Shown: positions 4,257 to 24,590 of the stretch, one piece after another
Layout of the letters: each line of letters opens with the position of its first letter
Position numbering within the stretch: the first letter of the stretch is position 1
Assembly (NCBI RefSeq): GCF_003856835.1
Contig: NZ_CP034146.1
Coordinates: 1-41,138, forward strand
DNA: 41,138 nucleotides
Direction: 5' to 3'
Origin: Haloplanus aerogenes
Lineage (GTDB): Archaea; Halobacteriota; Halobacteria; Halobacteriales; Haloferacaceae
Notes under the pieces: generated by a model
Seen by the model: only the letters and a program-made list of their open reading frames with translations
What the model was told of the DNA's origin: nothing
Databases searched by the model: none
Position numbers and translations under genes: made by a program

Positions 4257-4300
4257 CTTACCAAACAATACGGGCTAATAGAGAATAAATGTTTGGTAAG
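4257..4300. promoter_or_regulatory. CTTACCAAACA inverted pair, copy A
   Basis: CTTACCAAACA (4257-4267) and TGTTTGGTAAG (4290-4300) are perfect 11-bp inverted arms with a 22-nt spacer. The spacer contains the likely TATA box of the DUF6788 gene on the minus strand, and the proximal arm covers the expected transcription start. This arrangement suits a repressor. Four further copies lie at 6323, 8980, 15271 and 24546. Confidence 0.75.
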
Positions 4301-4619
4301 ATTTGAGATTTGCCCTTCAGCATTTCCGGAGTAATCATCAACGAGAGGCGGTGTATCGGTTATTGTCGAACATTCAGTAGCTCTGGAACGCTCGACATCC
4401 AATCTTCCACCGTTTCCGAACCTATTAGTCGAGATAGTGATGCGTTCCAGTAATTCCAGAGCTCTACGCTCCCAGGGAACAGAGAGTATCAGAGAAAATT
4501 GCTGAAACGGTGGTGTGTGACCGATCGAACCTAACCACGATGAGCGGAGGAGGATCTCAGAACGGAGAAACCGGACGAGGTACGATTGAGCCATCAGAAG
4601 ATATGGGAGAAGGACAGAG

Positions 4620-4641
4620 ACACACCACTCTTGCAAGTGAA
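4620..4641 (-). other. Origin recognition box (ORB)
   Basis: On the minus strand this reads as an ORB-like element, TTCACTTGCAAGAGTGGTGT plus two more bases. The same 22 bases recur exactly at 6138-6159 on the other side of cdc6. It points towards the initiator gene's outer flank, opposite to the boxes at 4822 and 4854. Confidence 0.7.
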
Positions 4642-4821
4642 GCCAAAAACTTGGGGGAGAGGGAAGGAGCAGAGAGAAGCAGTCGAAATAGATTCAGACG
4701 CCGATACCAACACGAAGAGGATCTCTAGGACGATAACTCAGATAACATCAACCAACGGATGTGTCAACGCTTTAGTTGAAGTCGTGGACTGTTGCTCTAG
4801 TCACTACTACTAGTCTAGTCT

Positions 4822-4843
4822 TTCACTTGTAACAGTGGTGTGT
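4822..4843 (+). other. Origin recognition box (ORB)
   Basis: TTCACTTGTAACAGTGGTGT plus two bases matches 6245-6266 downstream of cdc6. It is in the opposite orientation to the box at 4620, giving the inverted arrangement typical of haloarchaeal origins. Confidence 0.75.
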
Positions 4844-4853
4844 GTCTGTGGTC

Positions 4854-4880
4854 TTCACTTGAAACAGATGTAGGGGTGGT
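4854..4880 (+). other. Degenerate origin recognition box
   Basis: TTCACTTGAAACAG followed after a short interruption by GGGGTGGT resembles the intact boxes but is stretched and imperfect. It sits directly before the cdc6 TATA element, so initiator binding here could repress its own promoter. Confidence 0.5.
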
Positions 4881-4893
4881 TTTATATGGAGGA
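4881..4893 (+). promoter_or_regulatory. TATA box and GGAGGA upstream of cdc6
   Basis: TTTATAT at 4881-4887 lies about 24-30 bases before the ATG at 4911, as expected for a leaderless haloarchaeal transcript. GGAGGA follows directly. Confidence 0.6.
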
Positions 4894-4910
4894 CGTGAGA
4901 AAGCGGTCAT

Positions 4911-6137
4911 ATGCGTCGATTCGAGCGGAAGCAGAATATCTTCCGCAACAAAGACGCTCTTGGAGAATCCTACCAACCCGACCAAATCGAGGAGCGGGAT
5001 GAGGAGATCGAGGAGTACATGGACGCTCTCCAGCCCGTTGTTGACGGGTGGGAACCGAACAACATCTTCCTCTACGGGAATACCGGTGTCGGGAAAACCG
5101 CTGTTACCGACTACCTTCTCGACAGACTCCAGGATGATGTCGCTGACTATGACGACGTCAACCTATCAGTCATCTCGTTGAATTGCAAGACGCTGAACTC
5201 CTCCTATCAAGTCGCCGTCGAACTCGTGAACAAGCTTCGTCCTGCTGGCGGTGAAATCAGTTCAACTGGCTATCCCCAGCAGACTGTTTTCAAGAAACTG
5301 TACGAGGAACTTGAGGCGATCGGCGGGACGATTCTGATCGTCCTGGACGAGGTCGACTCGATTGGTGACCGAGACGAATTATTGTACGAACTTCCGCGAG
5401 CTCGGGCGAACAACAACCTCGACTCGGCCAAGGTTGGTGTCATCGGGATCAGCAACGATTTCAAATTTCGCGAACAACTGGACCCTCGCGTCCAAGACAC
5501 GCTCTGTGAACGAGAACTCCAGTTTCCGCCGTATGATGCACCTGAGCTGGAGAATATTCTGGAATCCCGCGCTGAAATCGCGATCGCAGAGGATGCCGTC
5601 GAGCAGGGTGTGTTGAACTTCTGCGCGGCTCTTGCTGCTCGCGATAGTGGCAGTGCCCGTCAGGCGCTCGACCTCCTTCGATTGGCCGGTGAGATCGCGG
5701 AAAACCGTGAAGCAGACCTCATCGAGCGTGACCACGTCGAGGCAGCACGATCCCGTCTTGAACAGGAACGTGTCGAAGAAGGAATGCGTGAGCTGACGAC
5801 GCACGGCCGTCTCGCACTATTAGCCGTCATCTCGAAAGCCGCTAAAGAGGAGACTCCGTGTCGAACGCGGGAGATTTACGAGGAATACATCACCCTGTGC
5901 GATTCCTCCGGAACTGACTCACTCGCTCAGCGATCCGTCCATAATCATCTGTCGGATCTTCGGATGCTCGGGATTCTGTCGGCCTACGAGAATCGGAGCG
6001 GGTCTCGAGGAAATTACTACAGCTACGAACTGGACGTCCCGTTCACGAGTGCGATCGAGGCGATGTCTGATGTTCTGCGGTTAGACAGCGAGATCGAGAC
6101 GATTCGAGAAATTGCATCGATGAACAACGTCGCCTAG
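4911..6137 (+). CDS. cdc6: Orc1/Cdc6 replication initiator
   Basis: A 408-residue AAA+ ATPase that binds origin boxes and is expected to load the MCM helicase. Walker A is GNTGVGKT at residues 56-63, Walker B is the LIVLDEVDS block near residue 145, and the ISNDFKFREQLDPRVQ stretch near residue 190 corresponds to sensor 1 and its flank. The C-terminal third (from about residue 290) is the winged-helix DNA-binding domain. Length is normal for haloarchaeal Orc1/Cdc6. Boxes lie on both sides: three upstream and four downstream, the first downstream box beginning at the base after the stop codon. This marks the gene and its flanks as a working origin of the replicon, and as the plasmid's cognate initiator. 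Confidence 0.95.
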   Translation: MRRFERKQNIFRNKDALGESYQPDQIEERDEEIEEYMDALQPVVDGWEPNNIFLYGNTGVGKTAVTDYLLDRLQDDVADYDDVNLSVISLNCKTLNSSYQVAVELVNKLRPAGGEISSTGYPQQTVFKKLYEELEAIGGTILIVLDEVDSIGDRDELLYELPRARANNNLDSAKVGVIGISNDFKFREQLDPRVQDTLCERELQFPPYDAPELENILESRAEIAIAEDAVEQGVLNFCAALAARDSGSARQALDLLRLAGEIAENREADLIERDHVEAARSRLEQERVEEGMRELTTHGRLALLAVISKAAKEETPCRTREIYEEYITLCDSSGTDSLAQRSVHNHLSDLRMLGILSAYENRSGSRGNYYSYELDVPFTSAIEAMSDVLRLDSEIETIREIASMNNVA

Positions 6138-6159
6138 ACACACCACTCTTGCAAGTGAA
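6138..6159 (-). other. Origin recognition box (ORB), identical to 4620-4641
   Basis: It starts immediately after the cdc6 stop codon and is base-for-base identical to the minus-strand box at 4620-4641. Confidence 0.7.
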
Positions 6160-6186
6160 GTCGCCGATGTGTGTCGATTATTCGTG

Positions 6187-6266
6187 TTCACTTGTAACAA
6201 TGGTGTGGTCGGTTTGACCCTGTTCACTCGCAACTGTGGTGTGGTTCACTTGTAACAGTGGTGTGT
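6187..6266 (+). other. Cluster of three origin recognition boxes
   Basis: Three same-direction boxes lie at 6187-6208 (TTCACTTGTAACAATGGTGT core), 6223-6244 (TTCACTCGCAACTGTGGTGT core) and 6245-6266 (TTCACTTGTAACAGTGGTGT core). The last two abut exactly. With the box at 6138 they form the downstream half of the origin. Confidence 0.75.
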
Positions 6267-6322
6267 CTGAGGCGGGACTAGGTAATAGTGCCATCCCCAT
6301 CGAGAAATGGGCTGATTGGATT

Positions 6323-6365
6323 CTTACCTAACATTAGGAGGAAGTTCACTATGTTGTTTGGTAAG
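6323..6365. promoter_or_regulatory. CTTACCAAACA inverted pair, copy B
   Basis: CTTACCTAACA (6323-6333) and TGTTTGGTAAG (6355-6365) are separated by 21 nt. One arm carries a single A-to-T change, the same change seen in one arm of copy D. The pair lies between the origin boxes and a small gene with no start codon close by, so its target is unclear. Confidence 0.65.
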
Positions 6366-6525
6366 GCCAGATCAACCGCATTCCCACCGAGTTTTTCGAG
6401 AGAGCAACGACCTCGTGTCAGGGATGTCTGGCCCCTCCATAGCAGTTGATGCGTTCTACGAAAATTCTCGCTTTCGCTGATCCGGAGTCGTACTCTACTC
6501 CTCACCTAGTGCTGTAGCCAGCGGC

Positions 6526-6843
6526 TTACGCGGAATTCAGGTACTGATTGGCCGGGTACTCGGCTTGTGTCACTTTCGTTCGGGCGGTGCGCCGAACTTT
6601 TCGATTTGGCGGCCGCTCTTCATACTCGTCGATATATTCCTTGATGTAGGTGGCCACTTCGTCGACGACGTCGGCGTCAGCACACTCGGCGACGTTCATA
6701 AGCGTCGTCTGATACCCCATTTTCGCCATGGGTAATCCCTGTTGTCCCCCGATCACCTCGTCGTTGATCTCTTGAATCTCGTAGAGGTGTCCCTTAATTC
6801 GCAACTCCATGTCTCGGTCCGTGATTTCGGGTCGCATGGGCAT
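6526..6843 (-). CDS. Small conserved hypothetical protein
   Basis: A 105-residue protein (103 if the second ATG at 6837 is used). It is hydrophilic with an alternating helical pattern: MELRIKGHLYEIQEINDEV, then MGYQTTLMNVAECADADVVDEVATYIKEYIDEYEERPP, then a basic segment NRKVRRTARTKV. I do not recognise the family. The basic tail could bind nucleic acid or be a linker. Its upstream region on the minus strand contains overlapping hairpins at 6872-6957. Similar small orphan proteins near haloarchaeal plasmid origins are common, which is the only contextual hint. Confidence 0.5.
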   Translation of the reverse strand: MPMRPEITDRDMELRIKGHLYEIQEINDEVIGGQQGLPMAKMGYQTTLMNVAECADADVVDEVATYIKEYIDEYEERPPNRKVRRTARTKVTQAEYPANQYLNSA

Positions 6844-6871
6844 ATGTTGGTAGCCTCGTGTTCACCACGAT

Positions 6872-6957
6872 ATCCTGGACCGGTGGTCGCCAGGATTTCG
6901 CGGCTTGCCTATGTTGGCAATCCCCGGATTGCTAGCATAAGCTATGCCGGGATTCGC
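6872..6957 (-). promoter_or_regulatory. Leader region with overlapping inverted repeats
   Basis: The arms are ATCCTGG/CCAGGAT (6872-6878, 6890-6896), TTGCC/GGCAA (6905-6909, 6916-6920) and GCAATCC/GGATTGC (6917-6923, 6926-6932). A wider AATCCCCGG/CCGGGATT pair overlaps the third. The second and third share bases 6917-6920, so they cannot form together. This is an arrangement typical of switching leaders, or of a protein-binding palindrome cluster. It precedes the gene starting at 6843. Confidence 0.4.
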
Positions 6958-7048
6958 AGGTAAAGGCTTATCGGCGTTCGCTTGTTAAGGAAGAATGAGG
7001 ACGCGGACCAGGCCCGCTGGGTTGAACCCTCGGGACTGATCCGGTTAG

Positions 7049-7073
7049 GGACGTGGGGTAGTGGCCCACGTCC
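7049..7073 (-). terminator. Hairpin downstream of the RNase-H-like gene
   Basis: GGACGTGGG (7049-7057) and CCCACGTCC (7065-7073) form a perfect 9-bp stem with a 7-nt loop, 16 bases beyond the stop of the gene ending at 7089. No strong U-run follows. The position suggests 3'-end formation or transcript stabilisation. Confidence 0.45.
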
Positions 7074-7088
7074 TGATGACGTCCGATC

Positions 7089-7958
7089 CTACGGCGCAAT
7101 CGTCTCCAAGAGATACCTCTGCAGCTGTTGTGACTCGAGCATCTGTACTGTATTCTCCCACTGAGAGCTCACGTCAAACCCGTCATTATCCGGATGTCGC
7201 CCTTTGATCCATGCTGCGACGCGAGTCCGTTCAAGTGCCCCGTAGTCACCCCCGACGCCGCGGATTCGATAGAATGGGACGGGAGACACCGATGGCTCAC
7301 GCCAGTTTGTATCGAATCGAACAACCTCCTCAGGCAGCGTATGAACCTGCTCAGTCCCTTCGTCGATCACGTTTCGGACGTAGCCGGCGATATAATCAGC
7401 CGCTGTGACCTCAGGATACGTGAGATCGGCTTTCGGAAGCCCAGTCACGTATACGCCACCAAACGTCGATTGAAACGATCCGTCGAAGATCTGTGATGCT
7501 TGCGTTCGGAGATGAGCCTGACTATCGCCATACATACTCGGTGCGCCATCCGGGATAAGAATTGAATCACCGCTGAATTCGTCCACGGATGTGATCGTCT
7601 TTTTTGCGAGAACACAGACTGCCGCTGCCTTATGATGGATCGACTCTTGTGACCGCCCAACAGCGACGCTCCACGGAATCGATTCCTCGATCAGCGACTC
7701 GATTAAGCCTTGCACTCGCTGATTTCGTTCAGCCGGTGTCGCATTTTCAACAAGTGTCTGGGATTTCGCTTGCCACGGAGCCAGATTATGCTGTAGAAGC
7801 AGCTCCGCGAGTCGTTCACTATTCTCACGAGGACACCGAACTACAGCAAGGGCAAATGGTTCTGGTCCAACTACTCGACCGGACTCATCTATCCCAATAA
7901 CGTGCTCAGCCCGTGTTGTATTCCCCGAGGACTGATCGATTACCTGAACTGATCGCAC
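7089..7958 (-). CDS. RNase-H-fold protein (RNase HII / DUF3800-like)
   Basis: A 289-residue protein. The N-terminus has HVIGIDESGRVVGPEPFALAVV, close to the GIDEAGRGPVxGPxV block of RNase HII and the DESG start of DUF3800. A later Asp (SILIPDGAPS) and an ADYIAGYVRNVID segment match the remaining acidic positions of the fold; the last is more like DUF3800 (ADyia) than RNase HII. It is therefore probably a metal-dependent nuclease or an integrase-like core, but the substrate is unknown. It is longer than a typical RNase HII. The neighbours on the same strand are a possible nuclease (8123) and an MBL-fold protein (9067), so it belongs to an accessory or defence-like block. Confidence 0.55.
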   Translation of the reverse strand: MRSVQVIDQSSGNTTRAEHVIGIDESGRVVGPEPFALAVVRCPRENSERLAELLLQHNLAPWQAKSQTLVENATPAERNQRVQGLIESLIEESIPWSVAVGRSQESIHHKAAAVCVLAKKTITSVDEFSGDSILIPDGAPSMYGDSQAHLRTQASQIFDGSFQSTFGGVYVTGLPKADLTYPEVTAADYIAGYVRNVIDEGTEQVHTLPEEVVRFDTNWREPSVSPVPFYRIRGVGGDYGALERTRVAAWIKGRHPDNDGFDVSSQWENTVQMLESQQLQRYLLETIAP

Positions 7959-8122
7959 TCTTCCATCACACTCGACATTATCTCGTTATTGCCAACCGTA
8001 GACAGTCACCGTGCTTGAAACCACCGTAACCGTGTCGGAGTCCCCTAATTTAGCCACGCTACTCTCACGACTATCGGCTTATTACTGCCTCTTGATTTTC
8101 TCTCCGAGGTGTTGGTATCAGC

Positions 8123-8923
8123 TCATTCTGGCCGTTCAAGCATTGTGTGTCGTGAACGGCCGATTCCGTGCGTCGACAGGTCAGTCCCCTCTTCGTCGAG
8201 CCTGTAGAGATAACTATTGAGCGACTGCTGATCGATATCGGGTTGCTCGGTAGGAATTCGCACCTCGCCAGTGTGTTGTCGCTCAACGACGGATGTAACC
8301 CGATCCGACAGCCACTCTATATCCCCGTTTACGAGCCGGTTCACTCGTCGCTTGAACGTGCTGTACGCGTCCGTGTGCTCCCCTTGCGATGTGAAGCGCA
8401 GCCCATACTCACAGGCGTTGACCGATTCTTTGAGCGTCTCCCAGTCATACACCAGCGCATCCGGGACACTGTACCGCCCACCGTTGTTGATCTTAGCTCT
8501 GATACCGGTTGGCCGTCCTGCAGTACACGCATTCTCCGGGACGTACACCAGTGATGTGTTTCTCCGAAGCCCGAACATGTCGATGAAGACCGACCGGGAA
8601 AGCGTATGCTCCAAGTTCGTCGCGTCGACGACTTCAGGCAACACAAAGAAGGCTTGGTTGTACTCGTACAGAGAGGTCAGTGTCCGCCACTGATCACGGT
8701 TTACAGAAAACCGGCGGTCTGAATCCGAATCGACGGTGTACGGCCGTTTGTATTGAAAAACGACGGATTTGAGCAACGGCAGATTCGTGTCGTACCCCAA
8801 GATGTTCTCCATCTCTCGGGTTGGTGAGAAGGCTGCGGGCCCGGTGAACTCTTCTTCGAGATCCCCGAGCATATGGTGGGTGGCGTTGACAGTGAGAGTG
8901 TTTTCTGTCGGTGTATCTGTCAT
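8123..8923 (-). CDS. Hypothetical protein with FQYKRP motif, possible nuclease
   Basis: A 266-residue protein I cannot assign. Near residue 55 it has LLKSVVFQYKRPYTV followed by FSVNRDQWRTLTSLYEYNQAFFVLPEV. A strand ending in Lys-Arg-Pro followed by a Q-x-x-x-L helix and an aromatic AFFVLP strand resembles the core of some restriction-endonuclease-like proteins. The catalytic acids are not obvious, so this is a weak inference. The last codons coincide with a 9-bp inverted repeat. A CTTACCAAACA pair (copy C) lies 57 bases upstream of the start. Confidence 0.5.
   Translation of the reverse strand: MTDTPTENTLTVNATHHMLGDLEEEFTGPAAFSPTREMENILGYDTNLPLLKSVVFQYKRPYTVDSDSDRRFSVNRDQWRTLTSLYEYNQAFFVLPEVVDATNLEHTLSRSVFIDMFGLRRNTSLVYVPENACTAGRPTGIRAKINNGGRYSVPDALVYDWETLKESVNACEYGLRFTSQGEHTDAYSTFKRRVNRLVNGDIEWLSDRVTSVVERQHTGEVRIPTEQPDIDQQSLNSYLYRLDEEGTDLSTHGIGRSRHTMLERPE
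8130..8161. terminator. Inverted repeat at the 3' end of the 8123 gene
   Basis: GGCCGTTCA (8130-8138) and TGAACGGCC (8153-8161) form a perfect 9-bp stem around 14 nt. The stem lies within the last dozen codons of the minus-strand gene. It may be a 3'-end hairpin or a protein site. Confidence 0.35.
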
Positions 8924-8979
8924 ATTCTATCGAATCTGTCTGTAGCTGAAAGTACTTCTGGAGGATACGATTTGATTGT

Positions 8980-9022
8980 CTTACCAAACGAGTTCCGATA
9001 CACCTCTTGAATGTTTGGTAAG
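8980..9022. promoter_or_regulatory. CTTACCAAACA inverted pair, copy C
   Basis: CTTACCAAACG (8980-8990) and TGTTTGGTAAG (9012-9022) are separated by 21 nt, with only the innermost base of one arm differing. The pair lies upstream of the gene starting at 8923 (minus) and just beyond the stop of the MBL-fold gene ending at 9067. Confidence 0.7.
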
Positions 9023-9066
9023 AAAGATAGTTCAAGTCGTGTTTTCTGAAGTTTGCTGGACTACGT

Positions 9067-10128
9067 TCAATCGTCGGGGAGATCGAAAATCCCGTCCGGT
9101 TCTGCCTTGTCGACGATAATCGAGTTTGGACGGGTACAAATCGCCTTGATGCGACCGTATTGGCGGGTCGACAGAATCTCTGTCTCCTCACTACATGCGG
9201 AGCGGTAGTTGTCGTAGGCGTCTTGATCGTCTTTCTTCCCGACACTCACGATCACGTACGCAGGATCCATTACCTCTACTGCCTCTCTGTGAAAGCCATC
9301 CTTGCGACCGTGATGAGCGGCTTTCAGCACATGGACGTCTTCGAGAACTTCAGGCCCCCACTCCGCTAAGATTTCGTCCCATACGTCCTCTTCAGCGTCT
9401 CCCGGGAGCAGGATTGAGCGTGTCCCATGCTGGATTTTGAGGACGTAGCTGTAGTCGTTATATTCCGGATCTTCTAGCTCAGCATTCTGCTCATTAAGTT
9501 CCTGAACGAACTCCGGGGACGGATGGAGGATCTCTATATTGTCGTGCTTCCAGTATTTCTTTTGTTGCCCTTGAGTCGGCTGGATATTGTCGTGGTTCGT
9601 GTCTCCCTCTCGAATGTCCTCGTAAAGTTCCCAATCTGCCCACTCGTAGACTTCGTACCAGTCATCTCCATCACGCTCGCGATTGTGATCGGTGTCCCAA
9701 AACACGCTAAATCCGATTTCTTCATCGAGTCGGTTCAACCCCGATAGGTGATCCATATCTGGATGAGTCGCGATGAAGCGCCAGATCTTGTGTGTCACCT
9801 CGTCAAAATTCTCGTTATAGTACTCGATTGGATCATTGAGGTACTCTTGAGCGTACTCTTCAGGGCTGATCTGACTTTTTTGCCGAATCCCAGATAAGCG
9901 GCTTTGCTGGTCGTCTTTCACCGGAAATTGACGATAGTACTCCAGACTGCTGATGTCGTCTTCCTCGACGTGTTCCTTCTGCTCCGGCCAATCGTTGATA
10001 TCGATAACCGATATTCGCCCCTCGTCCCGATGTTGATCACCAGGGTGCCGAACGATGGTGCAATCACCATGGTCAACGTTCAAAAAATGAACCTGGAGGT
10101 GATTATAGAGCACTAGATGTGAACACAC
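9067..10128 (-). CDS. Metallo-beta-lactamase-fold hydrolase, ComEC-type
   Basis: A 353-residue MBL-fold protein. The first strand is LQVHFLNVDHGDCTIVRHPGD, the metal motif is THPDMDHLSG at residues 121-130, LLPGDAEEDVWDEIL gives the bridging Asp, and LKAAHHGRKDGFH is the following His motif. Together with VIVSVGKKDDQDAY these resemble the soluble domain of ComEC/Rec2. Such stand-alone proteins are probably nucleic-acid or phosphodiester hydrolases. It is divergent from a second MBL protein (10215) with an 87-base gap, so they may be co-regulated. The exact start is uncertain, since GTG codons shortly inside would also keep the first strand. Confidence 0.8.
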   Translation of the reverse strand: MCSHLVLYNHLQVHFLNVDHGDCTIVRHPGDQHRDEGRISVIDINDWPEQKEHVEEDDISSLEYYRQFPVKDDQQSRLSGIRQKSQISPEEYAQEYLNDPIEYYNENFDEVTHKIWRFIATHPDMDHLSGLNRLDEEIGFSVFWDTDHNRERDGDDWYEVYEWADWELYEDIREGDTNHDNIQPTQGQQKKYWKHDNIEILHPSPEFVQELNEQNAELEDPEYNDYSYVLKIQHGTRSILLPGDAEEDVWDEILAEWGPEVLEDVHVLKAAHHGRKDGFHREAVEVMDPAYVIVSVGKKDDQDAYDNYRSACSEETEILSTRQYGRIKAICTRPNSIIVDKAEPDGIFDLPDD

Positions 10129-10214
10129 ACCAGCCCCGTATGTTTCTTTCGTGGTGGCAGTTCCTCTTCAGTTCTGCCCGAACTTCCTAAACGGGCGGCT
10201 AATCTAATACCAGT

Positions 10215-11096
10215 ATGGCTGCTGTCGAGATCTACATTTGGGATGTCGAGCGGGGGGATGCGATTTTCGTTAAGGGGCCAGAACGGAACGCAGTCATTGA
10301 TCTGGGCCAGCACGCGAACGGCTTTTCGCCCAGTCGCCACATCCATACACAGCACGGAATCGACTCGGTTGATTATCTAGTGCTCACGCATCCAGATGAA
10401 GATCACATCGAAGATCTCCCCGAGTTTTCATCATATTTCTCACCTGAAGTGATTGCCCGTCGTGACGAAGCAGACGAGTATATCAGACGGCGGAAAAACG
10501 ATCTCTACCCCGACCGCTCACACTACCAGTCAGTGACAGAAGCTTATCTAACACTCACTGATACGTACGATCGACGAGCAACCTTCTCCCCGAGTGACCC
10601 CTCCTGGAATGGAGGTCTGACATTCACCCACCACATTCTTTCGTTAGCAGAGGCCGGAACGACACCTATCGACGATTTAAGCAGAGGAGAGACGGTGAAC
10701 CTGAACAATCTCAGCATCTTGACGGTGCTTGAATATGGATCGTTCAAGTTCGTCACTGCGGGCGATCTCGAACAGGAGGCGCTTGAAACCCTTCTGGAGC
10801 AGTCCTCCGTCTGTGATGACCTTCGCAATACGAATGTCCTCGTCGCCCCTCACCACGGCCGTGAAAGCAGTTATACACCGAAATTATTCCAGCATATGAC
10901 GCCGGAGTTAGTCGCGATATCGGATGCGAAAGCCGGGTCGACGAATGCAAGCCAGAAATACAGTGCGCAAGCGACTGGCGCGACCGTCTCCCGACGATCA
11001 GGAACGAAAACAAATCGGAATGTTGTTACGACGCGGCAGGATGGCGTTATCTATCTCGGAATCGACGACGAAGAGTACCGTGTACGAATCGATTGA
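10215..11096 (+). CDS. Second metallo-beta-lactamase-fold hydrolase
   Basis: A 293-residue MBL-fold protein, divergent from the one at 9067-10128. It starts with VEIYIWDVERGDAIFVKGP and has the metal motif THPDEDHIED (His59, Asp61, Asp63, His64), KFVTAGDLEQEALETLL and LVAPHHGRESSY. It lacks the 80-residue insertion seen between the first strands and the HPDMDH motif of its neighbour, so the two are distant relatives rather than a recent duplication. The likely reaction is phosphodiester hydrolysis. Three genes follow on the same strand, all with membrane segments, suggesting that a soluble hydrolase works with membrane partners. Confidence 0.8.
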   Translation: MAAVEIYIWDVERGDAIFVKGPERNAVIDLGQHANGFSPSRHIHTQHGIDSVDYLVLTHPDEDHIEDLPEFSSYFSPEVIARRDEADEYIRRRKNDLYPDRSHYQSVTEAYLTLTDTYDRRATFSPSDPSWNGGLTFTHHILSLAEAGTTPIDDLSRGETVNLNNLSILTVLEYGSFKFVTAGDLEQEALETLLEQSSVCDDLRNTNVLVAPHHGRESSYTPKLFQHMTPELVAISDAKAGSTNASQKYSAQATGATVSRRSGTKTNRNVVTTRQDGVIYLGIDDEEYRVRID

Positions 11097-11160
11097 CCGA
11101 CTTCGATACTCGTGAATCTCGGCCAAGTGTTTATAATGCGTTAGCCGCAAATGTCAGCTA

Positions 11161-11451: not shown

Positions 11452-11546
11452 CTGGATTTTCGGTCGGGTGGATCTCTCAACAATACTCCTTCAGTGGTGC
11501 ATATGAGATGATATATGGGCTATCGGGTTGTCCGTAGTAACAGGCT

Positions 11547-14675: not shown

Positions 14676-15224
14676 GTGACGGAGCTCGAGGTCGCCAACG
14701 TCGTCGGGATGATCACCTATCAGCAGGAACTCGACCTCGCGGCGCTTGCTAAGACGTTCGAAGAGCGAGACGAAATCACGGATGTCACCTACGAACCGGC
14801 CGACAACCACTGGTTACAGACGCGCTTTGCCCCCGACGACACGTACGTCGCCTTCTATCGGACGGGACGTTGTTCGATTGCTGGCTGTCGGTCCATCGAA
14901 CACTTCGAAACGATGGTCGACCGTGTGAATGCGGTCATGCGTGAGCTGCTGGACTTCGAGTACGAGCCGGCGGCTGAAATCAGTAATATCGTGGCGACGA
15001 GCGATCTCGGCTCGCCGATTCCGTTGGAACTGCTTACCCTCGAGCTGGGGATGGATGCCGTCGAGTACGAGCCGGAGCAGTTCCCAGCGCTGATGTATCG
15101 TGGAGCGGACCACGTGATCCTCGTCTTCGCGAGCGGAAAGTTGCTTTGTACTGGACTTACCGATCTGGAGGCCGTCTCCGAAGCGGTCGACGATCTCCGA
15201 GGGCGGATTCAAGCCGTCGTCTGA
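14676..15224 (+). CDS. Divergent TATA-binding protein, paralogue 1
   Basis: A 182-residue TBP, near the normal length for archaeal TBP. It has two repeats. The second (from about residue 95) is canonical: a strand ending in SNIVATSDLGSPIPLELL, then EYEPEQFPALMYR and VILVFASGKLLCTG. The first begins well (LEVANVVGMITYQQELDL) but has lost the FPG-x-x-YR segment, which now reads YEPADNHWLQTRF, and its SGK turn reads YRTGR. Because paired phenylalanines in both repeats kink the TATA box, one half of the DNA contact should be altered. The GTG start at 14676 lies 62 bases after the RHH gene. It is probably an alternative promoter-recognition factor. Confidence 0.85.
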   Translation: MTELEVANVVGMITYQQELDLAALAKTFEERDEITDVTYEPADNHWLQTRFAPDDTYVAFYRTGRCSIAGCRSIEHFETMVDRVNAVMRELLDFEYEPAAEISNIVATSDLGSPIPLELLTLELGMDAVEYEPEQFPALMYRGADHVILVFASGKLLCTGLTDLEAVSEAVDDLRGRIQAVV

Positions 15225-15270
15225 ATGGCCCCTCTCGAAATGCGATGTGGATCGGCTCTTCACTGACTGT

Positions 15271-15315
15271 CTTACCAAACAGTTGTATCCAAGACAGCGA
15301 CTAATGTTAGGTAAG
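15271..15315. promoter_or_regulatory. CTTACCAAACA inverted pair, copy D
   Basis: CTTACCAAACA (15271-15281) and TGTTAGGTAAG (15305-15315) are separated by 23 nt, with one mismatch in the second arm. The pair lies between the two TBP genes, about 100 bases upstream of the second. Confidence 0.7.
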
Positions 15316-15412
15316 AAAGAGTCACGGCTGCGCCGTTTCTGTCCTCAGGGGCTACCTCGTGATTCAACAATACATAAGCAGTCGGTAGGAGAAGTAGGTG
15401 ACAACCTGACTG

Positions 15413-15946
15413 ATGGAGATAGTTAGTACGATGGGATCGGGCTCGCTCGGTCGCGAGCTGGATCTCGATGTGTTCGTCGACGCTCTACAGGAGGCAGTTG
15501 AGTACGATGTAAACCCGAGCTACAGCGACTCCGGAATGATCACGGTTCGCTTAGAGCCGGAGGGTGTTGCCTATCTGTTCTACCGCAGTGGAAGCTTCCA
15601 GATTCGCGGTGCCGAGAATCAAGCGGCTCTGGAGAAAGCGGAGGCCCGACTTCAGGAGGTGTTTGCTGAGATCGGCCTAGAGGTTCCCGAGTACTCGTTC
15701 GAACAACGAACGGCCGTCTTCATGGAGAATCTGGACCGGTCTATTGATTTGGAACGGCTAATGATCGAACTCGGGCTCGAACACACCGAATACGAACCGG
15801 AACAGTTCCCGGCACTCATCTACAAACCTCCAGCCTTCGAGGTGACGCTTCTCATTTTCTCCAGCGGGAAGATCATCATCGGCGGAACGATGAGTAAGCG
15901 TACCGCTCAGGAGGCCATTGACCATCTGACTAAATCCCCCGGCTAG
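15413..15946 (+). CDS. Divergent TATA-binding protein, paralogue 2
   Basis: A 177-residue TBP paralogue. Like its neighbour it keeps a normal second repeat (LERLMIELGLEHTEYEPEQFPALIYK, then LLIFSSGKIIIGG). The first repeat has lost the FPG block (YDVNPSYSDSGMITVRL), although it keeps LGRELDL and YRSGS. The shared pattern suggests both descend from a TBP already altered in repeat one. The N-terminus MEIVSTMGSGSLGRELDL aligns to the usual TBP start, so the ATG at 15413 is right. It overlaps the convergent metallopeptidase gene by four bases and has an inverted-pair regulatory site (copy D) upstream. Confidence 0.85.
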   Translation: MEIVSTMGSGSLGRELDLDVFVDALQEAVEYDVNPSYSDSGMITVRLEPEGVAYLFYRSGSFQIRGAENQAALEKAEARLQEVFAEIGLEVPEYSFEQRTAVFMENLDRSIDLERLMIELGLEHTEYEPEQFPALIYKPPAFEVTLLIFSSGKIIIGGTMSKRTAQEAIDHLTKSPG

Positions 15947-16650: not shown

Positions 16651-16652
16651 CG

Positions 16653-19600: not shown

Positions 19601-19688
19601 CGTCGAGACCATAAACTTCCCAACCGAGTTCCTCGAGCCACCCGAGGACATCGTGTTGGTAGCCAGCCTCGCTCGGTAACTTAGACAT
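16653..19688 (-). CDS. hsdR: Type I restriction endonuclease subunit R
   Basis: A 1011-residue HsdR, the motor and nuclease subunit. The N-terminal nuclease core has RPDVNLFVNGIPLVTMELKS (near residue 170), with the D...ExK catalytic set. The helicase Walker A is THTQ-like, with HTQGSGKSFTML near residue 310, followed by a MSDEAHR box and a GFTGTPV motif. The second RecA domain has LLTGFDAP and an arginine-finger stretch AIARTNRP. A helical region that docks on the methylase follows. An ATG at 19703 also exists, but MSKLPSEAGYQHDV at 19688 overlaps the hsdS stop by eight bases, matching the coupling seen at the other hsd junctions. Confidence 0.95.
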   Translation of the reverse strand: MSKLPSEAGYQHDVLGWLEELGWEVYGLDGEYGGSRLDREYNRTDKREVIYWDLLSEWLVESEINPEITEDNVDEVLNSLQRDLNHDTLVTGNRDFHEVLTTGKKFTLRAEGFVTDRDEDGDVDVIYVDLIDFENLENNRFVAADEFQVDGPNGRIRPDVNLFVNGIPLVTMELKSIAEDNDFYDAIRDLRNYEEKRSRLFVPGLFNVAADQGEYRYAAVGAPQRLYMPWRNAPEQYAVEDNEPKQAIRAMCNRETLLNLLKNYVFHERQPGGDARIIPRYMQYYAVEEIFDLIRTTDHKRGLIWHTQGSGKSFTMLFAARNLIQGATLGDRAPVLDNPQVLVVVDTDDLESQMENQLNALNFDRFDVARSGAHLQRLLEEGRSTLVLTTIQKFGNVDSDVQGNDETVIMSDEAHRYMEKDLGTKLNAALPNAYHFGFTGTPVREGDRDTFRNYEIPDSEDPYLHRYSIKDGIDDGLILPVHFDIHEIEWDIDRAALNQAFDAEFDHLDLDEKRELIQEYVTQTEIAELRSRVSAVTRSIDEHYRGVEENGWKGMVVTPSRKAAALYGEELLKYRDPEEVEVLYTSNDPGAGDESGPGDKKLISQFHTTPEERSDIIRRFKDPDENPKLVVVCDMLLTGFDAPAVKAMYLDRNLKNHKLLQAIARTNRPAEQKNNGLIVDYQGVFRNLDEAFEYDDEEVKEMAAQPRDELFEKLERKIDDLLGLFEGIERDDSQETLLECLSRVSSHPEKRDFKQGFREVRDLYETLEPDPDLEKKGIRDDYRWLLTIYIAFRRNNNRDESPEDEFRAQTQKILQENVDVTDIKREFPIYELNGEDLEAMLDLPSMGAKANAIEHATQAHLQPRVDSNPQYEEFGKRVERIITQRQNGSITDPEAVERLTEVSNEILEFEEELSEQGLSDASYAIYLTLDEEYGDVIADEETAKDVAQDLWEGFEEEIQTDFEGWETRDSTRKAIRKMIIQRLIKKHGLSSLAKDDEFLEETIGYLIENAE

Positions 19689-20496
19689 CGACACGCACCT
19701 CATCAGGGATGTCTACTTCGCTATGTATCCGAACGTCTCCTGAGACCAAGCGCCGTGAAATGCCTTCTTTCAGGTTCGAAATCCGATTTTTATATTCACG
19801 GGTACTCTCTTGATTTTCATCGAGAGTTTCCACTATCTCGACGATCTCGCGTTGCTCTTCTAAAGGTGGTAGTGGAATCTCTATTTTTTCAATACCCCCG
19901 ATACTCAGGTTGTAGTTGCCTGCAGAGGTTCGAATCCACCCATTCATTTCTACACGGCCTAAGCTAGAGTTGAGAAACTCTCGGACATATTTGGGATGGA
20001 CACGGTCCTCATCGAACCGGAGACGAATCAGGTACGATGCGAACACGTACGTCTCGTCTCGTTCCTCAAATACGGCACAGCGCCCTGCGTAGTCGGGGTT
20101 ACCGTTGGTACGCACGATGAGGAGATCACCTTCTTGAAGCGCTAATTTCTCAACAGCAGAGTCGCTCAACTCTGTATATTTTATATCGTCTTCTGTAATC
20201 CGACGTTGAACGACGTTGGGGATCCTCAAAGTGGGATATCCCTCACCGTCGCTGTGGGACTTTTCATCAGTTCCATACCTTGAGTCCGTTAGAACCTCTC
20301 CTAACCGAACAACCGGCCAATCAGAGGGGATAGATCCAAACTGCTTTTCGGTGAAGTCTTGGTGTTCACGGGTTCCTTCGGTCAGGACTTCGCGAACGAC
20401 CCCTTTCCGGATGACTTCTTGCTCATCGAGCATGCTCTGTGTGTTGAAAATACCTTGATCTGTGTCGTAGAGGATCCCTGAAGTCTTGGTGTTCAC
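19681..20496 (-). CDS. hsdS: hsdS C-terminal half (second target-recognition domain)
   Basis: This 271-residue frame, from a GTG at 20496, carries the central conserved helices (ILYDTDQGIFNTQSMLDEQEV), the second target-recognition domain beginning at FGSIPSDWPVVRLGEV, and the distal conserved helices (PLPPLEEQREIVEIVETLDENQES). In an intact HsdS both recognition domains sit in one chain and define the two halves of the DNA site. Here the frame is one base out of register with the first half because of a 127-bp tandem duplication. It could be made as a separate half-subunit, which can dimerise in other type I systems. The domain is less GC-rich than the rest of the operon, suggesting domain exchange. 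Confidence 0.85.
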   Translation of the reverse strand: MNTKTSGILYDTDQGIFNTQSMLDEQEVIRKGVVREVLTEGTREHQDFTEKQFGSIPSDWPVVRLGEVLTDSRYGTDEKSHSDGEGYPTLRIPNVVQRRITEDDIKYTELSDSAVEKLALQEGDLLIVRTNGNPDYAGRCAVFEERDETYVFASYLIRLRFDEDRVHPKYVREFLNSSLGRVEMNGWIRTSAGNYNLSIGGIEKIEIPLPPLEEQREIVEIVETLDENQESTREYKNRISNLKEGISRRLVSGDVRIHSEVDIPDEVRVDV

Positions 20497-20605
20497 GGGT
20501 TCCTTCGGTCAGGACTTCGCGAACGACCCCTTTCCGGATGACTTCTTGCTCATCGAGCATGCTCTGTGTGTTGAAAATACCTTGATCTGTGTCGTAGAGG
20601 ATCCC
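20352..20605. repeat. Perfect 127-bp tandem duplication inside hsdS
   Basis: Bases 20352-20478 are repeated exactly as 20479-20605. The unit is 127 bp, which is 42 codons plus one base, so the second copy throws the reading frame. Removing one copy joins the two halves into a 464-codon HsdS (465 with the stop), the normal length. The unit encodes the conserved central spacer helices between the two recognition domains. Confidence 0.95.
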
Positions 20606-21202
20606 CGCAATCCGCAGCTGCTCCTCCATCGGCGGCACGGGAATCTGCACACGCTGGACTTCCCGCTTGCTGATCTCTGAGAAGGTGCTCCCCGCCCCAA
20701 GACTCTCCAGGTACGGGGCCATCTCGGTGATGACGTAGTAGAGGTACCAGGTGTTCACCTCTTCCCCGGGGATGAGACTCTGGAAGCCCTGATTCGTCGC
20801 CATCGGGACGGTGTTGACCGCACACTTCCCGATTGACGCACGCGACGTCAGGAGGACCGAGTACGGCGGCAGCACGTGCGTCGACGTGGATTCGAGCCCG
20901 GCCTCCGTGATCTTGTCCTCGGTGTCACTGATGGTGTTGCCCTGCAGCTCCGTCAGATCCGTCGGCGTCGCCCACGGGATGTCGCCGCCCCAGTACTCGT
21001 CTTTGTCCGTCGATGGAGTACTCCCACCCTGCACCGTCGCGACCTCGTCGAGACGCTTGATCTCCCAGTCGGTCGGGAGCGAGGGGAAGCGAGCGGTCCC
21101 GTGGTCCTCCGGGCTGGATTCCGTTGGTTCCTCCTCCTCGGAGCGGCGCTCGTCGCCGCTGTCGGCGCTCGCGAACTGCTCGAGGTCGTACTGATCACTC
21201 AT
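20423..21202 (-). CDS. hsdS: hsdS N-terminal half (first target-recognition domain)
   Basis: A 259-residue product that begins at ATG 21202 (MSDQYDLEQF), overlapping the hsdM stop by eight bases. It has an acidic linker, the first recognition domain (from FPSLPTDWEIKRLDEVATVQGG) and the first conserved helix block (PVPPMEEQLRIAGILYDTDQ). After GTREHQDF it runs into the second duplicate in the wrong frame, adds about 18 unrelated residues and stops. As read it is a half-HsdS. Whether it works depends on partnering with the second half, or on loss of one duplicate. Confidence 0.85.
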   Translation of the reverse strand: MSDQYDLEQFASADSGDERRSEEEEPTESSPEDHGTARFPSLPTDWEIKRLDEVATVQGGSTPSTDKDEYWGGDIPWATPTDLTELQGNTISDTEDKITEAGLESTSTHVLPPYSVLLTSRASIGKCAVNTVPMATNQGFQSLIPGEEVNTWYLYYVITEMAPYLESLGAGSTFSEISKREVQRVQIPVPPMEEQLRIAGILYDTDQGIFNTQSMLDEQEVIRKGVVREVLTEGTREHQDFRDPLRHRSRYFQHTEHAR

Positions 21203-22742
21203 AGCCGAGCACCTCCATGTGCTGGTCCATCCGCGCCTCGAGGTCGTCACGCTCCGCTCTGAGGTCGTGAAGCGCCGCCAACTCCTCGGCGACGTCGATC
21301 TCCTCCCGTGGCTCGGTCGTGTCGACGTAGAGCGCGATGTTGAGGTTGTAGTCGTTGGCAGCGATCTCCTCGACGTCGACGACGCGGCTCACCCGCTCCT
21401 CGGTGTCCCAGGATCGGAAGTTCTCGACGATGTGATCGAGTCCCTGCTCGGTGAGCTCGCTCTGGTTGCTGAGCTCCCGGTAGAACTGCTCGACGTAGTT
21501 GTCGCCGGCGTGGAGGAACAGCACCTGTCCCTGCCGCTCGACGGGCTTGTCCTTGTTCAACACGAGGATGGCCGACGGGATGGAGTTGTTCTGGAAGAGA
21601 TTCGACGGGAGCCCGATGACGGCCTCAACGATCTCGTGATCGACGCCGGGAATCCCGTCCCCGTCGGGCGAGAGCATCGGCTTGCGGAATTTCGACTCGT
21701 GTCGACGGAACAGCACGCCGTGGGGGATGACGATGGCGGCACGTCCGGTTTCGTCGAGCTGGGCGATCATGTGCATGATGAACGCGTAGTCACCACGGTC
21801 GGCTCGCGGGAGCTTGCCGTCCTCAGCCCAGCTGAAGCGACCGTACTTGTCGTCTCGGAGGCCGTCCTTGTCCCAGTCTGCCGAGAACGGGAAGTTCGCA
21901 AGGACGTAGTCGAACGTCTCCAGCCGGCCGTCCTCGGTGAACTGCGGACTGCTGAGGGAGTCCTCACGTCGGATTTCGCCGTCTTCGCTGAACCCGTTGA
22001 TGAACAGGTTCATCCGAGCGATGGCGGCGATGTCGGGGTTCACCTCCTGCCCCGTCAGTCGGAACCCGTCGGGGTCGCCGCTGTCGGGATCCTCGGCGGC
22101 GTAGCGGGCCGCACGGACGAGCATCCCGCCCGAGCCGGCCGTGGGGTCGTGGATCTCGGCGCCGTCCGTGTACGGCCCGAGCAGCCGCACCATCAGGTCG
22201 GTAATGTGTGGCGGCGTGAAGAACTCCCCACCGTCGCGACCTTCTTCGTCGGCGAAGTGCCGAACGAGGTCCATGTACGCCTCCCCGAGCAGGTCCGGCG
22301 GGACGCGGTGGGTACTGAGGTTGTAGGTGCTCAGGTGCTCGACGAGGTTCGCGAGCTTGGTGTCAGTGAGCGCGTCTGCGCGACGGAAGTCCGCACGGAA
22401 GACGCCGTCGAGGGTCGGTTCGTTTTCGCGCTCGAGCGCGCTGAACGCGTCGTTGATGAACTCGTCGACGCGCTCGTTCTGCTTGCGCAGTTCCTCCCAG
22501 CGGTACTCCTCGGGGACGACGAAGTCGTGGAACGCCTCGTCACTCGCGATCTCGGGGTCGTCGTACTCCTCGAGGAGCTCCTCGTAGTTGTCCTGGTAGG
22601 TGTCACTGATGGTCTTGTAGAAGACCAACGGCAGGATGTAATCCTTGTAGTCGGTCTTGTCGACCGTGTTGCGGATGATGTCGGCGCACTTGAACAGGTA
22701 GCGATCCAGATCGTCGAGGGTCGGGGTGGTGTCGGAACTCAT
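21195..22742 (-). CDS. hsdM: Type I methyltransferase subunit M
   Basis: A 515-residue N6-adenine methylase. The N-terminal helical domain (DLDRYLFKCADIIRNTVDKTDYKDYILPLVFYK) is typical of HsdM. The GEFFTPPHITDLMVRLL segment precedes the SAM motif IHDPTAGSGGML. The catalytic motif IV reads ANFPFS instead of the common NPPF/Y; HsdM subunits with NFPF do occur, so activity is likely. The C-terminal helices contact HsdS. The start overlaps the upstream regulator by four bases (ATGA), showing one operon. Confidence 0.93.
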   Translation of the reverse strand: MSSDTTPTLDDLDRYLFKCADIIRNTVDKTDYKDYILPLVFYKTISDTYQDNYEELLEEYDDPEIASDEAFHDFVVPEEYRWEELRKQNERVDEFINDAFSALERENEPTLDGVFRADFRRADALTDTKLANLVEHLSTYNLSTHRVPPDLLGEAYMDLVRHFADEEGRDGGEFFTPPHITDLMVRLLGPYTDGAEIHDPTAGSGGMLVRAARYAAEDPDSGDPDGFRLTGQEVNPDIAAIARMNLFINGFSEDGEIRREDSLSSPQFTEDGRLETFDYVLANFPFSADWDKDGLRDDKYGRFSWAEDGKLPRADRGDYAFIMHMIAQLDETGRAAIVIPHGVLFRRHESKFRKPMLSPDGDGIPGVDHEIVEAVIGLPSNLFQNNSIPSAILVLNKDKPVERQGQVLFLHAGDNYVEQFYRELSNQSELTEQGLDHIVENFRSWDTEERVSRVVDVEEIAANDYNLNIALYVDTTEPREEIDVAEELAALHDLRAERDDLEARMDQHMEVLGYE

Positions 22743-23431
22743 TGTGTGGAATCTTCGTTGAGGGCGGTTAGCATGATCTGTGCGGGCGGGTTGCCTGGCA
22801 TGTACTCCGCGAGGACATCCTCGCGGGCAGCCAGCCGAGCAAGCCCGTTGCGGGTCCGATCGAGGACGACGGCGAGCCGGAGGAGTGTCCGGACGTCAGC
22901 GTTGTGAATGGCATCCTCGCTGAACGTCTCGCTCGTCACGATGCGGGCGGCCGCGTGTTGGACGAGTTCATCGGCATGATGGCACACGTCGGGGACCGTC
23001 CGGAGGTGGCTAGCTCCCGTCGAGTCGATGAACGCCGTGGCGAGCACCGAAACCAGCAGCTCGTTCTCCGCGAAGAGATCGGGGAGCTGTCGCTTGGTTT
23101 CGGTGCGCTGGTCGTTGACCGCGTCGAGTTCGTCGTCGAACGGCCCGTCTGCGCGCTCGCGGGCAAGGTACATATCGACGTGCTCGCGGTACAGGTCCAG
23201 CAGTGCGACCTCGTCGATGCGGTAGCGGTGGTCCTCTTGTACGACGAGACCGGTATCGGCGAGTTTCCCGACGTTGTTCGATACGGCACCCTTGCTGTGC
23301 GGGAGTCGGTCCACCAGTTCCCGCTGGCGGAGCTGCTCCCCCTCGTCGAATTGCGCACGGGCTAACTCGCCGAGGATGTCGGTTTGGGTTCGTCCCTCAC
23401 GTGGTGTGAGGAGTGTGGCCGGTGATGGCAT
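22739..23431 (-). CDS. Winged-helix regulator heading the RM operon
   Basis: A 230-residue protein. Residues 15-80 form a MarR/TrmB-like winged helix (QTDILGELARAQF, then LVDRLPHSKGAVSNNVGKLADTGLVVQEDHRYRI). The rest is helical, with a long C-terminal domain containing DRTRNGLARLAAREDVLAEYMPGNPP. It overlaps hsdM by four bases, so it is co-transcribed with the modification gene. Controlling methylase against endonuclease expression is a reasonable inference. Alternatively the helical part could be a structural RM subunit. Confidence 0.75.
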   Translation of the reverse strand: MPSPATLLTPREGRTQTDILGELARAQFDEGEQLRQRELVDRLPHSKGAVSNNVGKLADTGLVVQEDHRYRIDEVALLDLYREHVDMYLARERADGPFDDELDAVNDQRTETKRQLPDLFAENELLVSVLATAFIDSTGASHLRTVPDVCHHADELVQHAAARIVTSETFSEDAIHNADVRTLLRLAVVLDRTRNGLARLAAREDVLAEYMPGNPPAQIMLTALNEDSTQ

Positions 23432-23499
23432 AGATGGTTGGTGTGGTCGTAGGTCAGCCAGCGGCTACGGCGGCACGTGCCGGCTGTTGAGCGGCCCAG

Positions 23500-24087
23500 T
23501 TACCCCTCGAGGCGGACGGCCTGGGCGTGGTTCTCGCCGACGTCGGAGATGCGAATCTCGACCTCGTCGCCCTCGCTTAGGTCCTTCTCGGGCGCGGGCA
23601 CGAATGTCACGAGCCCTTCGATATGGGCGACCGCCTTCGGGTCGCGCGGGTCGTCGTAGTCGGTGTCGTCGACGACGACCGTCCGGGTGTCACCGACGTT
23701 GACGATGTCGGTGGCGTCCCGTTTCTGGGCGTTGACGTGCGCGTCCTCCTTGTCGAGAACACGGTCCGAATACAGACCTCGGAGAGCGTCGAGGTCGTCG
23801 CGAAGGCCGTCGACCTCCTCTCGGAGTGCTTTGACCTCTGCCTGCTGCTCGTCGAGTTCCGCCTCTGCCTCCTGGAGGTTCGCGAGGAGCGACTCGTACG
23901 CACGCTCGAGGCCCTCGACCGTTTCGAGGCCTTCCTCGATCCGTTCGTCGAGTCCCTCGATGCGCGCGTTTTGGTCTTCGAGAGCCTCGGGAACCGCCAC
24001 CAGGAAGGTGAAGAGGTCCTCGAGACCGTCGAGGTTCGATCGGATGTGGTGCGTGTGCGTGCCGCCGTTAGATGCGCTGGATGACAT
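23500..24087 (-). CDS. Coiled-coil protein with C-terminal TRAM domain
   Basis: A 195-residue protein. From about residue 15 to 110 it is an uninterrupted coiled coil (heptad-like LDERIEEGLETVEGLERAYESLLANLQ). The final 50 residues (HIEGLVTFVPAPEKDLSEGDEVEIRISDVG...AQAVRL) match a TRAM/OB-like RNA- or DNA-binding fold. The pairing suggests an oligomeric nucleic-acid-binding factor. The ATG at 24087 is preferred to one at 24102, since the first five residues add nothing conserved. It lies 69 bases upstream of the RM regulator and may share its transcript. Confidence 0.6.
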   Translation of the reverse strand: MSSSASNGGTHTHHIRSNLDGLEDLFTFLVAVPEALEDQNARIEGLDERIEEGLETVEGLERAYESLLANLQEAEAELDEQQAEVKALREEVDGLRDDLDALRGLYSDRVLDKEDAHVNAQKRDATDIVNVGDTRTVVVDDTDYDDPRDPKAVAHIEGLVTFVPAPEKDLSEGDEVEIRISDVGENHAQAVRLEG

Positions 24088-24277
24088 TGTATCTGTACAC
24101 ATTGAATGGCAACGCTATAAAAATTACTCTTGTAGTGGGTTCGTAGAGAGTTGTTTACCATATGTGACTTGATATATTTGCATCAATCGGTCATCGCTAG
24201 TGTCGACGTCGAGGAGACGGTAGCAGAAAATCCACATCTCTATCTGACTGCTCACCAGAGAATAGATACCAAAGCGG

Positions 24278-24502
24278 ATGACTCGACGATTCGAGATTGG
24301 TGATGCCGTTCGTATTGATATCCCTGACGAGACGGATCCAGACCATGACCGGCTTCACGGCTGTCGGGGCGAGATCACTGCGATCCTGGAAGACGACGCC
24401 GGCGAGGTCACGGGCGACGTTCGAGATACGATGCTGTACCGCGTCCAGCTGGAGGATAACACGGAAGTTGATGTCCGATGGCGCGATCTTCGCCCGCCGT
24501 AA
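24278..24502 (+). CDS. Small SH3/KOW-like protein
   Basis: A 74-residue beta-rich protein: FEIGDAVRIDIPDETDPDHDRLHGCRGEI, then LYRVQLEDNTEVDVRWRDLRPP. The G-D-x-V-R start, a central G-x-x-G-x-I turn and a strand-rich end are typical of SH3-like barrels found in KOW and related domains. Similar small proteins are widespread in haloarchaea without assigned function. It is followed by inverted pair copy E. Confidence 0.6.
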   Translation: MTRRFEIGDAVRIDIPDETDPDHDRLHGCRGEITAILEDDAGEVTGDVRDTMLYRVQLEDNTEVDVRWRDLRPP

Positions 24503-24545
24503 ACGACCGTCTTCACGAGGATAGCCATTCGAACTTTCGAGAAAC

Positions 24546-24590
24546 CTTACCAAACACCACCGCGCAGTATCCCCTCTGATGTTTGGTAAG
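24546..24590. promoter_or_regulatory. CTTACCAAACA inverted pair, copy E
   Basis: CTTACCAAACA (24546-24556) and TGTTTGGTAAG (24580-24590) form a perfect 11-bp pair with a 23-nt spacer. The pair lies between the SH3-like gene and the DUF1931 gene, about 70 bases upstream of the latter's TATA element. Confidence 0.75.

Follow-up and report, generated by a model that had tools for sequence, protein, structure and literature searches.

Dispersed inverted pairs on a haloarchaeal plasmid as putative binding sites of its own DUF6788 protein

Five inverted pairs of an 11-bp half-site lie scattered over a 41,138-nt stretch of Haloplanus aerogenes DNA (contig NZ_CP034146.1; the whole stretch is hereafter called the window), raising the question of what reads them and to what end. 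The window is a complete contig of 41,138 bp, a size typical of a plasmid, and an earlier sequence-only reading saw in the pairs a replicon-specific regulon read by one factor. Our analysis points to a protein encoded on the plasmid itself, DUF6788 (PF20586; gene at 3918..4253, minus strand; 112 aa), as their putative binder, with autoregulation and an organising role on the replicon as functions, a reading that we consider probable.

The pairs were recovered exactly at the positions first reported, with arm-start distances of 33, 32, 32, 34 and 34 bp, in agreement with the 32–34 bp claimed. Copy A (4256..4301, minus strand; TCTTACCAAACA-22-TGTTTGGTAAGA) stands 2 nt ahead of the start codon of DUF6788 and, as had been proposed, brackets the core promoter, with a TATA-like TTTATT/TATTA element at 4276–4289 between its arms. 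The other four copies, listed without strand, are copy B (6322..6366) in the convergent gap downstream of cdc6, copy C (8979..9023) 55 nt upstream of the 8123–8923 gene, copy D (15270..15316) between two TBP genes and 96 nt upstream of a gene start, and copy E (24545..24591) 103 nt upstream of a DUF1931-like gene; the position of copy D is conserved on other replicons and that of copy E in genome G014. One arm of copy B and one of copy D are T-arms (CTTACCTAACA), again as claimed; copies B and E each have one arm without the outermost T of the 11-mer TCTTACCWAAC, and in one arm of copy C the 11th base is G. A small open reading frame of 32 codons, seen by eye in copy B, was set aside.

The five pairs are genuine and not chance. 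Pairs with at most one mismatch in the 22 half-site bases number five in the window and none in 300 Markov shuffles of it, and single half-sites with at most two mismatches match 18 times against 6.4 expected, a count that none of 100 shuffles reached. In the whole genome (3.5 Mb, two contigs), a loose pair pattern finds five matches, all on the plasmid contig, and its reversed control finds none. Two ways in which the idea had been expected to fail were thus not borne out: shuffles and reversed control gave no pairs at all, speaking against chance frequency, and the spacers are unrelated, speaking against a mobile element with conserved spacers. Copies of a transposon or miniature inverted-repeat transposable element were rejected, the interior not being conserved and the spacers, in the window and at non-orthologous sites, being unrelated by eye and low in information. 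That the spacers share no sequence holds within the window but not beyond it, as positional orthologues of copy D elsewhere do share spacer sequence.

Pairs of this kind (hereafter class 1) recur on other replicons. Across the 124 half-sites of 62 haloarchaeal pairs, TCTTACCWAAC is near-invariant, an appearance favoured by the mismatch-limited search from which the pairs came, and the spacer columns carry little information. The W base is mismatched between the arms without compensation in 24 of these 62 sites, which upholds the earlier argument for readout by protein over RNA. When gaps of 0–60 nt were scanned with at most two mismatches in 41 sequences (the window and 40 loci; 744,533 bp, duplicates not merged), 68 of 72 pairs had a gap of 23–26 nt (8, 36, 21 and 3 pairs at 23, 24, 25 and 26 nt, respectively), and the other four had gaps of 8 and 16 nt. 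The loose class-1 pattern is present in 16 of 170 genomes of the family and 39 of 392 of the order, with no match to the reversed control among the matches listed for either set.

The same pairs are found in other Halobacteriales and, by a scan of named genomes, in metagenome-assembled genomes (MAGs) of Archaeoglobaceae. Eight copies lie on one 35-kb contig (JALSOD010000190; loci L123 and L181) whose record is labelled WOR-3, probably through a binning error; two Archaeoglobaceae-like DUF6788 genes accompany them. A scan of viral contigs gave 73 matching stretches, of which almost every one holds just one pair and many are probably chance matches; contig 3300019926_000104 has two pairs (L061) and a DUF6788 gene (L346). 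Bacterial contigs also match the pattern in the contig scan (Parabacteroides, Omnitrophota and others), and L118, L136, L158 and L166 are bacterial contigs with tandem or overlapping pairs. A literature search with the half-site strings returned, among the matches listed, titles unrelated to archaeal plasmids.

Which protein accompanies the sites? We called genes and clustered proteins on 24 haloarchaeal segments and 11 Archaeoglobaceae loci. The gene start that most often faces a site is that of DUF6788 (22 flank counts), followed by that of cdc6 (13). The DUF6788 cluster holds 22 genes in 19 contigs, two of the genes being Cys-less, and a site adjoins it in 18 of the 19. The sequence-only reading had proposed to look for the regulator among co-occurring neighbours and had put forward the window's winged-helix and ribbon–helix–helix proteins; the approach yields the DUF6788 gene as recurrent partner, whereas none of those proteins emerged as a recurrent site-flanking cluster. 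Site and DUF6788 start are mostly 0–3 nt apart, with the pair bracketing the core promoter: the interval is 2 nt in the window, G018, G085, G039, G070, G194, G068, G071, G401, G116 and G058_C40, 0 nt in G058_C36, G377 and G177, and 33 nt in G173. In three Archaeoglobaceae loci, the site lies 2–26 nt ahead of, or over, the DUF6788 start; these proteins have 29–30% identity to the window protein, yet the same half-sites stand at or near their starts.

The association extends to whole genomes. PF20586, an independent Pfam model, occurs in 19 of 39 genomes with class-1 sites and in 39 of 353 without (p = 8e-8). Profile A1 at E < 1e-26 finds 32 of 51 site-positive and none of 26 hand-picked site-negative genomes, a count that is partly circular because A1 was built from site-bearing loci, as the Pfam counts are not. 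That the pairs are read by one factor is very probable, and DUF6788 is very probably both this reader and the regulator of its own gene. The window protein scores above the Pfam curated cut-off (34.8 versus 27.2 bits) and matches phrog_22659 (4.9e-24), both families being annotated as of unknown function. NCBIfam and PADLOC searches gave nothing useful for it, and a literature search for 'DUF6788' found no mention of the name; neither it nor the search with the half-site strings turned up a description of a cognate site.

Where the class-1 motif is missing, most near relatives of DUF6788 carry another kind of inverted pair, alike in geometry, directly before their start, with half-sites that include CCTTATGTAACA, CCTTGTGCAACA, CCTTGTGTAACA, ACCTTATCAATAC, TTAACCAACAAA, ATCTTAACCAAGG and TTTCCTACGCAAC. 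By script count, an inverted repeat scoring at least 9 and ending −3 to +40 nt from the start is found at 36 of 52 DUF6788 genes (non-redundant at 80%, class 1 included) and at 3 of 161 control genes of the same loci, the regions being up to 420 nt for DUF6788 and a fixed 130 nt for controls; holding DUF6788 to the fixed 130-nt region while allowing as many as six in-frame starts gives 38 of 52. Among the misses, L270, L289, L181, L315 and L011 have a pair and failed the start or score rule; others have no pair. Mapped onto a protein tree whose 64 members were picked because each has a matching pair, half-site class changes 7 times, against a minimum of 22 and a mean of 26.6 in 200 shuffles, although common descent of gene and promoter contributes to this fit, which therefore establishes joint inheritance and not binding itself.

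Pairs of classes 2 and 3 are likewise dispersed, occurring in 23 of 195 genomes with up to 45 copies in one and none for the reversed control, and PF20586 is present in 18 of these 23 genomes against 11 of the 172 without pairs (p = 7e-14). Pairs of the class of Cys-less relatives (TTAACCNAC) reach 7 to 14 copies in four of six genomes searched; the window's own genome has a single copy and G192 lacks them. A lone pair of this class lies in the window (29352..29392, no strand; TTAACCAACA-21-TGTTGGTTAA), although no Cys-less DUF6788-like gene was seen on the plasmid. Its spacer is similar to that of G071:C3:166275-166315.

DUF6788 is also encoded by the haloviruses phiH1 (PhiH1_250) and PhiCh1 (PhiCh1_230), near the repressor gene repR, and each virus has four CTTRTCAAAC-type pairs, a class other than that of the window. 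One PhiCh1 pair abuts the DUF6788 start codon. In phiH1, transcript T8 begins (at 31672, as annotated) inside the proximal arm of the pair at 31632–31677, so that the expected TATA position falls in the spacer; DUF6788 follows as the second gene. The remaining halovirus pairs are found ahead of parA, in the gap where repH and imm converge, and 18–20 nt past a stop codon. According to the accessible text of one report, segment 31,932–34,126 is inverted between phiH1 and PhiCh1 (PMC6210493); one of its ends is 2 nt beyond a phiH1 pair and the other 255 nt from the nearest. The segment holds parA and DUF6788 (L400, L401), in PhiCh1 two pairs enclose it, and an int2 recombinase gene is nearby. The pairs are not mentioned in the accessible parts of the genome papers on phiH1 and ChaoS9.

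Where do the sites lie when not at DUF6788? In haloarchaea they avoid genes: an overlap of over about 3 nt with a called gene is seen at 0 of 68 class-1 and 1 of 44 class-2/3 sites, at coding fractions of 0.75 and 0.64. Within intergenic DNA they show no further preference, as convergent gaps hold 16 of 67 class-1 and 11 of 43 class-2/3 sites, near the 24% and 22.5% share of intergenic length; only at DUF6788 is there a fixed promoter position. Operators should avoid gaps without promoters, and these sites do not, which favours an architectural or a replication and maintenance role. Of the proposed replicon-specific regulon, then, a site set tied to one replicon is supported and the regulon is not, the sites having no promoter preference besides that of DUF6788. 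On the plasmid, copies A and B lie on either side of the orc1/cdc6 replication gene (4911..6137, plus strand). Among cdc6 genes near a gene of protein cluster 0, 11 of 15 have sites on both sides; two of the remaining four are beside Cys-less relatives without a site, and the last two have a site on a single side. Repeats of TTCACTTGNAACA at 4822, 4854, 6187 and 6245, with inverted relatives at 4631 and 6149, flank cdc6 on both sides and are probably origin iterons; copies A and B enclose these repeats too, both those from 4822 and those from 6187.

From geometry, co-occurrence, gene-start position, covariation and context, all read from sequence, we infer a scheme of binding, zinc, dimer, repression and bridging. 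A C-terminal beta-hairpin domain, probably zinc-stabilised, would hold one 11-bp half-site per subunit, and the N-terminal helices would join two subunits into a dimer that clamps half-sites about 35 bp (3.3 turns) apart; such a clamp would fix the arms and leave the spacer free. In front of DUF6788 itself, TATA box and start site both lie between the arms, so that occupancy should close the promoter, giving negative autoregulation. The other copies may be anchor points rather than operators, through which DUF6788 would organise or bridge the replicon in control of replication or maintenance, with copies A and B bracketing the cdc6/origin module. Because the half-site differs from one DUF6788 lineage to another, elements in the same cell could be told apart. 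Tentatively, one may go further and see a replicon-identity system of archaeal plasmids and viruses, in which a self-regulating architectural DUF6788 with a lineage-specific half-site code and a hairpin shared with the Sulfolobus origin protein UBP might mark its own replicon and draw it together physically, its sites bracketing the replication module, and so let several elements inhabit one cell without cross-talk.

Several observations weigh against DUF6788 as reader and organiser, beside the share of common descent in the tree fit. Gene calls came from a simple in-house caller, and cdc6 flanks sites more often than DUF6788 once gene ends are included (17 counts at the stop, 13 at the start). 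No class-1-type gene is found at E < 1e-26 in 19 of the 51 site-positive genomes; two of these (G156 and G288) carry truncated genes, and the other 17, including G005, G014, G185, G252, G257, G310 and four of the six Archaeoglobaceae MAGs, mean that orphan sites exist. One genome scored as positive, G192, carries another half-site at its DUF6788 gene (L376). Gaps vary by 3–4 bp, which makes phasing on the helix face loose, and 3 of 18 Archaeoglobaceae sites overlap called genes (twice in L123, once in L175). No pair was found at the AQELL-type DUF6788 clade (13 loci: L377–L388 and L392, some chromosomal), at L325, L327–L330, L343 and L344, or at Thermus and Tunicatimonas DUF6788 genes. The resemblance to UBP is below significance (E 0.5–1), and the architectural role, although favoured, is the weakest step, drawn from context alone. 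One AQELL-type locus, L381 (G000:C1:2219740-2220066), is chromosomal in the window's own genome, its start without an inverted pair.

The same evidence bears on what else the pairs could be. A true regulon, in which the factor controls itself and the genes by copies C, D and E (the 8123 gene, TBP and the DUF1931-like gene), would fit the 55, 96 and 103 nt that separate these copies from gene starts, the conserved positions of D and E on other replicons, and the plausibility of TBP and a histone-like gene as targets. We nevertheless find it doubtful, as convergent gaps are not depleted and both copy B and the phiH1/PhiCh1 pair behind repH sit between two gene ends. That another protein such as Cdc6 reads the sites and DUF6788 is merely one target would account for the orphan sites and for the cdc6 genes adjoining sites in 13 contigs; it is made decidedly unlikely by half-site class following DUF6788 lineage, by pairs at DUF6788 genes in haloviruses whose nearby replication gene is repH, and by the Archaeoglobaceae pairs at DUF6788 genes in L123, L142 and L181, where clustering gives no cdc6-cluster gene. 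Centromere-like partition sites, with DUF6788 working alongside ParA, are brought to mind by a ParA/MinD-like cluster on 13 compared contigs, including the window (40075–40941), and by ParA in both haloviruses, one pair lying just upstream of parA. Yet the cluster flanks no site in the contigs compared, the ParA genes of the window and phiH1 each have their own small overlapping downstream gene, and DUF6788 matches no ParB model in Pfam, so we regard partition as quite unlikely.

Recombination sites or module boundaries, of the kind used by an Int2-type tyrosine recombinase or resembling attC, are very improbable, despite the inverted halovirus segment ending next to a phiH1 pair and the PhiCh1 parA–DUF6788 block enclosed by two pairs. 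The consensus of attC is RYYYAAC/GTTRRRY, which the T-arm variants resemble and the A-arms violate; the spacer is long and unconserved, and half-site class follows DUF6788. The window's integrase cluster (cluster 15) is in only 4 contigs, no systematic recombinase search having been made. The attC and dif sites themselves were rejected for want of a conserved crossover core between the arms. Least credible is an RNA or cruciform hairpin acting as terminator or small RNA: the arms are palindromic over 11 bp and several copies lie 18–54 nt past stop codons, but the W base goes uncompensated as described, the loops exceed 20 nt and some pairs occupy core promoters.

Known systems offer partial parallels to DUF6788 as reader of the pairs. 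Global plasmid regulators of the KorB/KorA type and ParB/parS are plasmid-encoded and autoregulated, with several dispersed operators on their replicon, as proposed here; they differ in protein family, as far as tested, and the DUF6788 sites stand apart by their wide split palindrome and lack of promoter bias beyond their own gene. Gal4-type split palindromes also combine conserved half-sites with an unconserved spacer of fixed length, set by the dimer linker, but that spacer is 11 against about 23–26 here, and the fold is different as far as known.

For the protein itself, models give a further lead. AlphaFold2 predicts N-terminal helices and a four-strand beta part for the window protein (mean predicted local distance difference test (pLDDT) 87.8), the C-terminal beta domain having conserved Cys/His and an HGPYxY hairpin. 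The model of the Archaeoglobaceae protein has a helix–beta–helix arrangement with long helices (pLDDT 78.7). Fold searches gave no significant match for either model. With the window model, UBP of Sulfolobus (9EFE) ranked 21st (E 3.5) and was not among the matches listed in the VIA fold search; with the Archaeoglobaceae model, prefoldins came first and 9EFE fifth (21 residues, 1.2 Å, 57% identity, E 0.79; not significant), 9EFF being listed as well. A sequence profile finds the same UBP hairpin at E 0.54–0.97, and tblastn with a UBP fragment had no match in the plasmids. The likeness suggests UBP as the best structural lead for DUF6788, as yet unproven.

In the accessible text of its report (PMC12141716; PDB 9EFD, 9EFE, 9EFF), UBP is a nucleoid-associated protein and, like DUF6788, a small archaeal protein (111 aa), with an 11-bp motif, the ucm site, at origins and at many intergenic positions without promoter correlation: its 329 chromatin immunoprecipitation peaks are enriched between genes and peak level is uncorrelated with adjacent transcription, although overexpression of UBP did alter many genes. 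UBP reads the major groove by a beta-hairpin, YWYKLEKIGGKLKWIYLGK, that resembles the one in DUF6788; joint mutation of K63, K67 and K69 in its loop abolishes DNA binding, and K63 contacts bases. Unlike the proposed DUF6788 dimer on paired, inverted half-sites 23–26 nt apart, UBP binds one ucm as a monomer, and its gene is essential and chromosomal, whereas that of DUF6788 is mostly plasmid- or virus-borne. The UBP authors ask in that text whether other archaeal lineages have analogous origin proteins, and DUF6788 is a possible euryarchaeal counterpart. With DUF6788 as putative reader of the pairs, a family annotated as of unknown function would gain a strong candidate function, testable at the molecular level. 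Its members are carried by numerous archaeal plasmids as well as by phiH1 and PhiCh1, both model haloviruses; several half-site classes are available for specificity swaps, and the protein is a candidate means by which archaeal plasmids organise their replication or set its timing.

Other features of the plasmid stand beside these results. Two TBP genes and a TFB-like gene are present (14676–15224, 15413–15946 and 25695–26774). Beside copy C lie two metallo-beta-lactamase-like genes (9067–10113 and 10215–11096) that match PADLOC candidate-defence models (PDC-M48B), and a type I restriction specificity-like region contains an exact 127-nt tandem duplication at 20352–20605.

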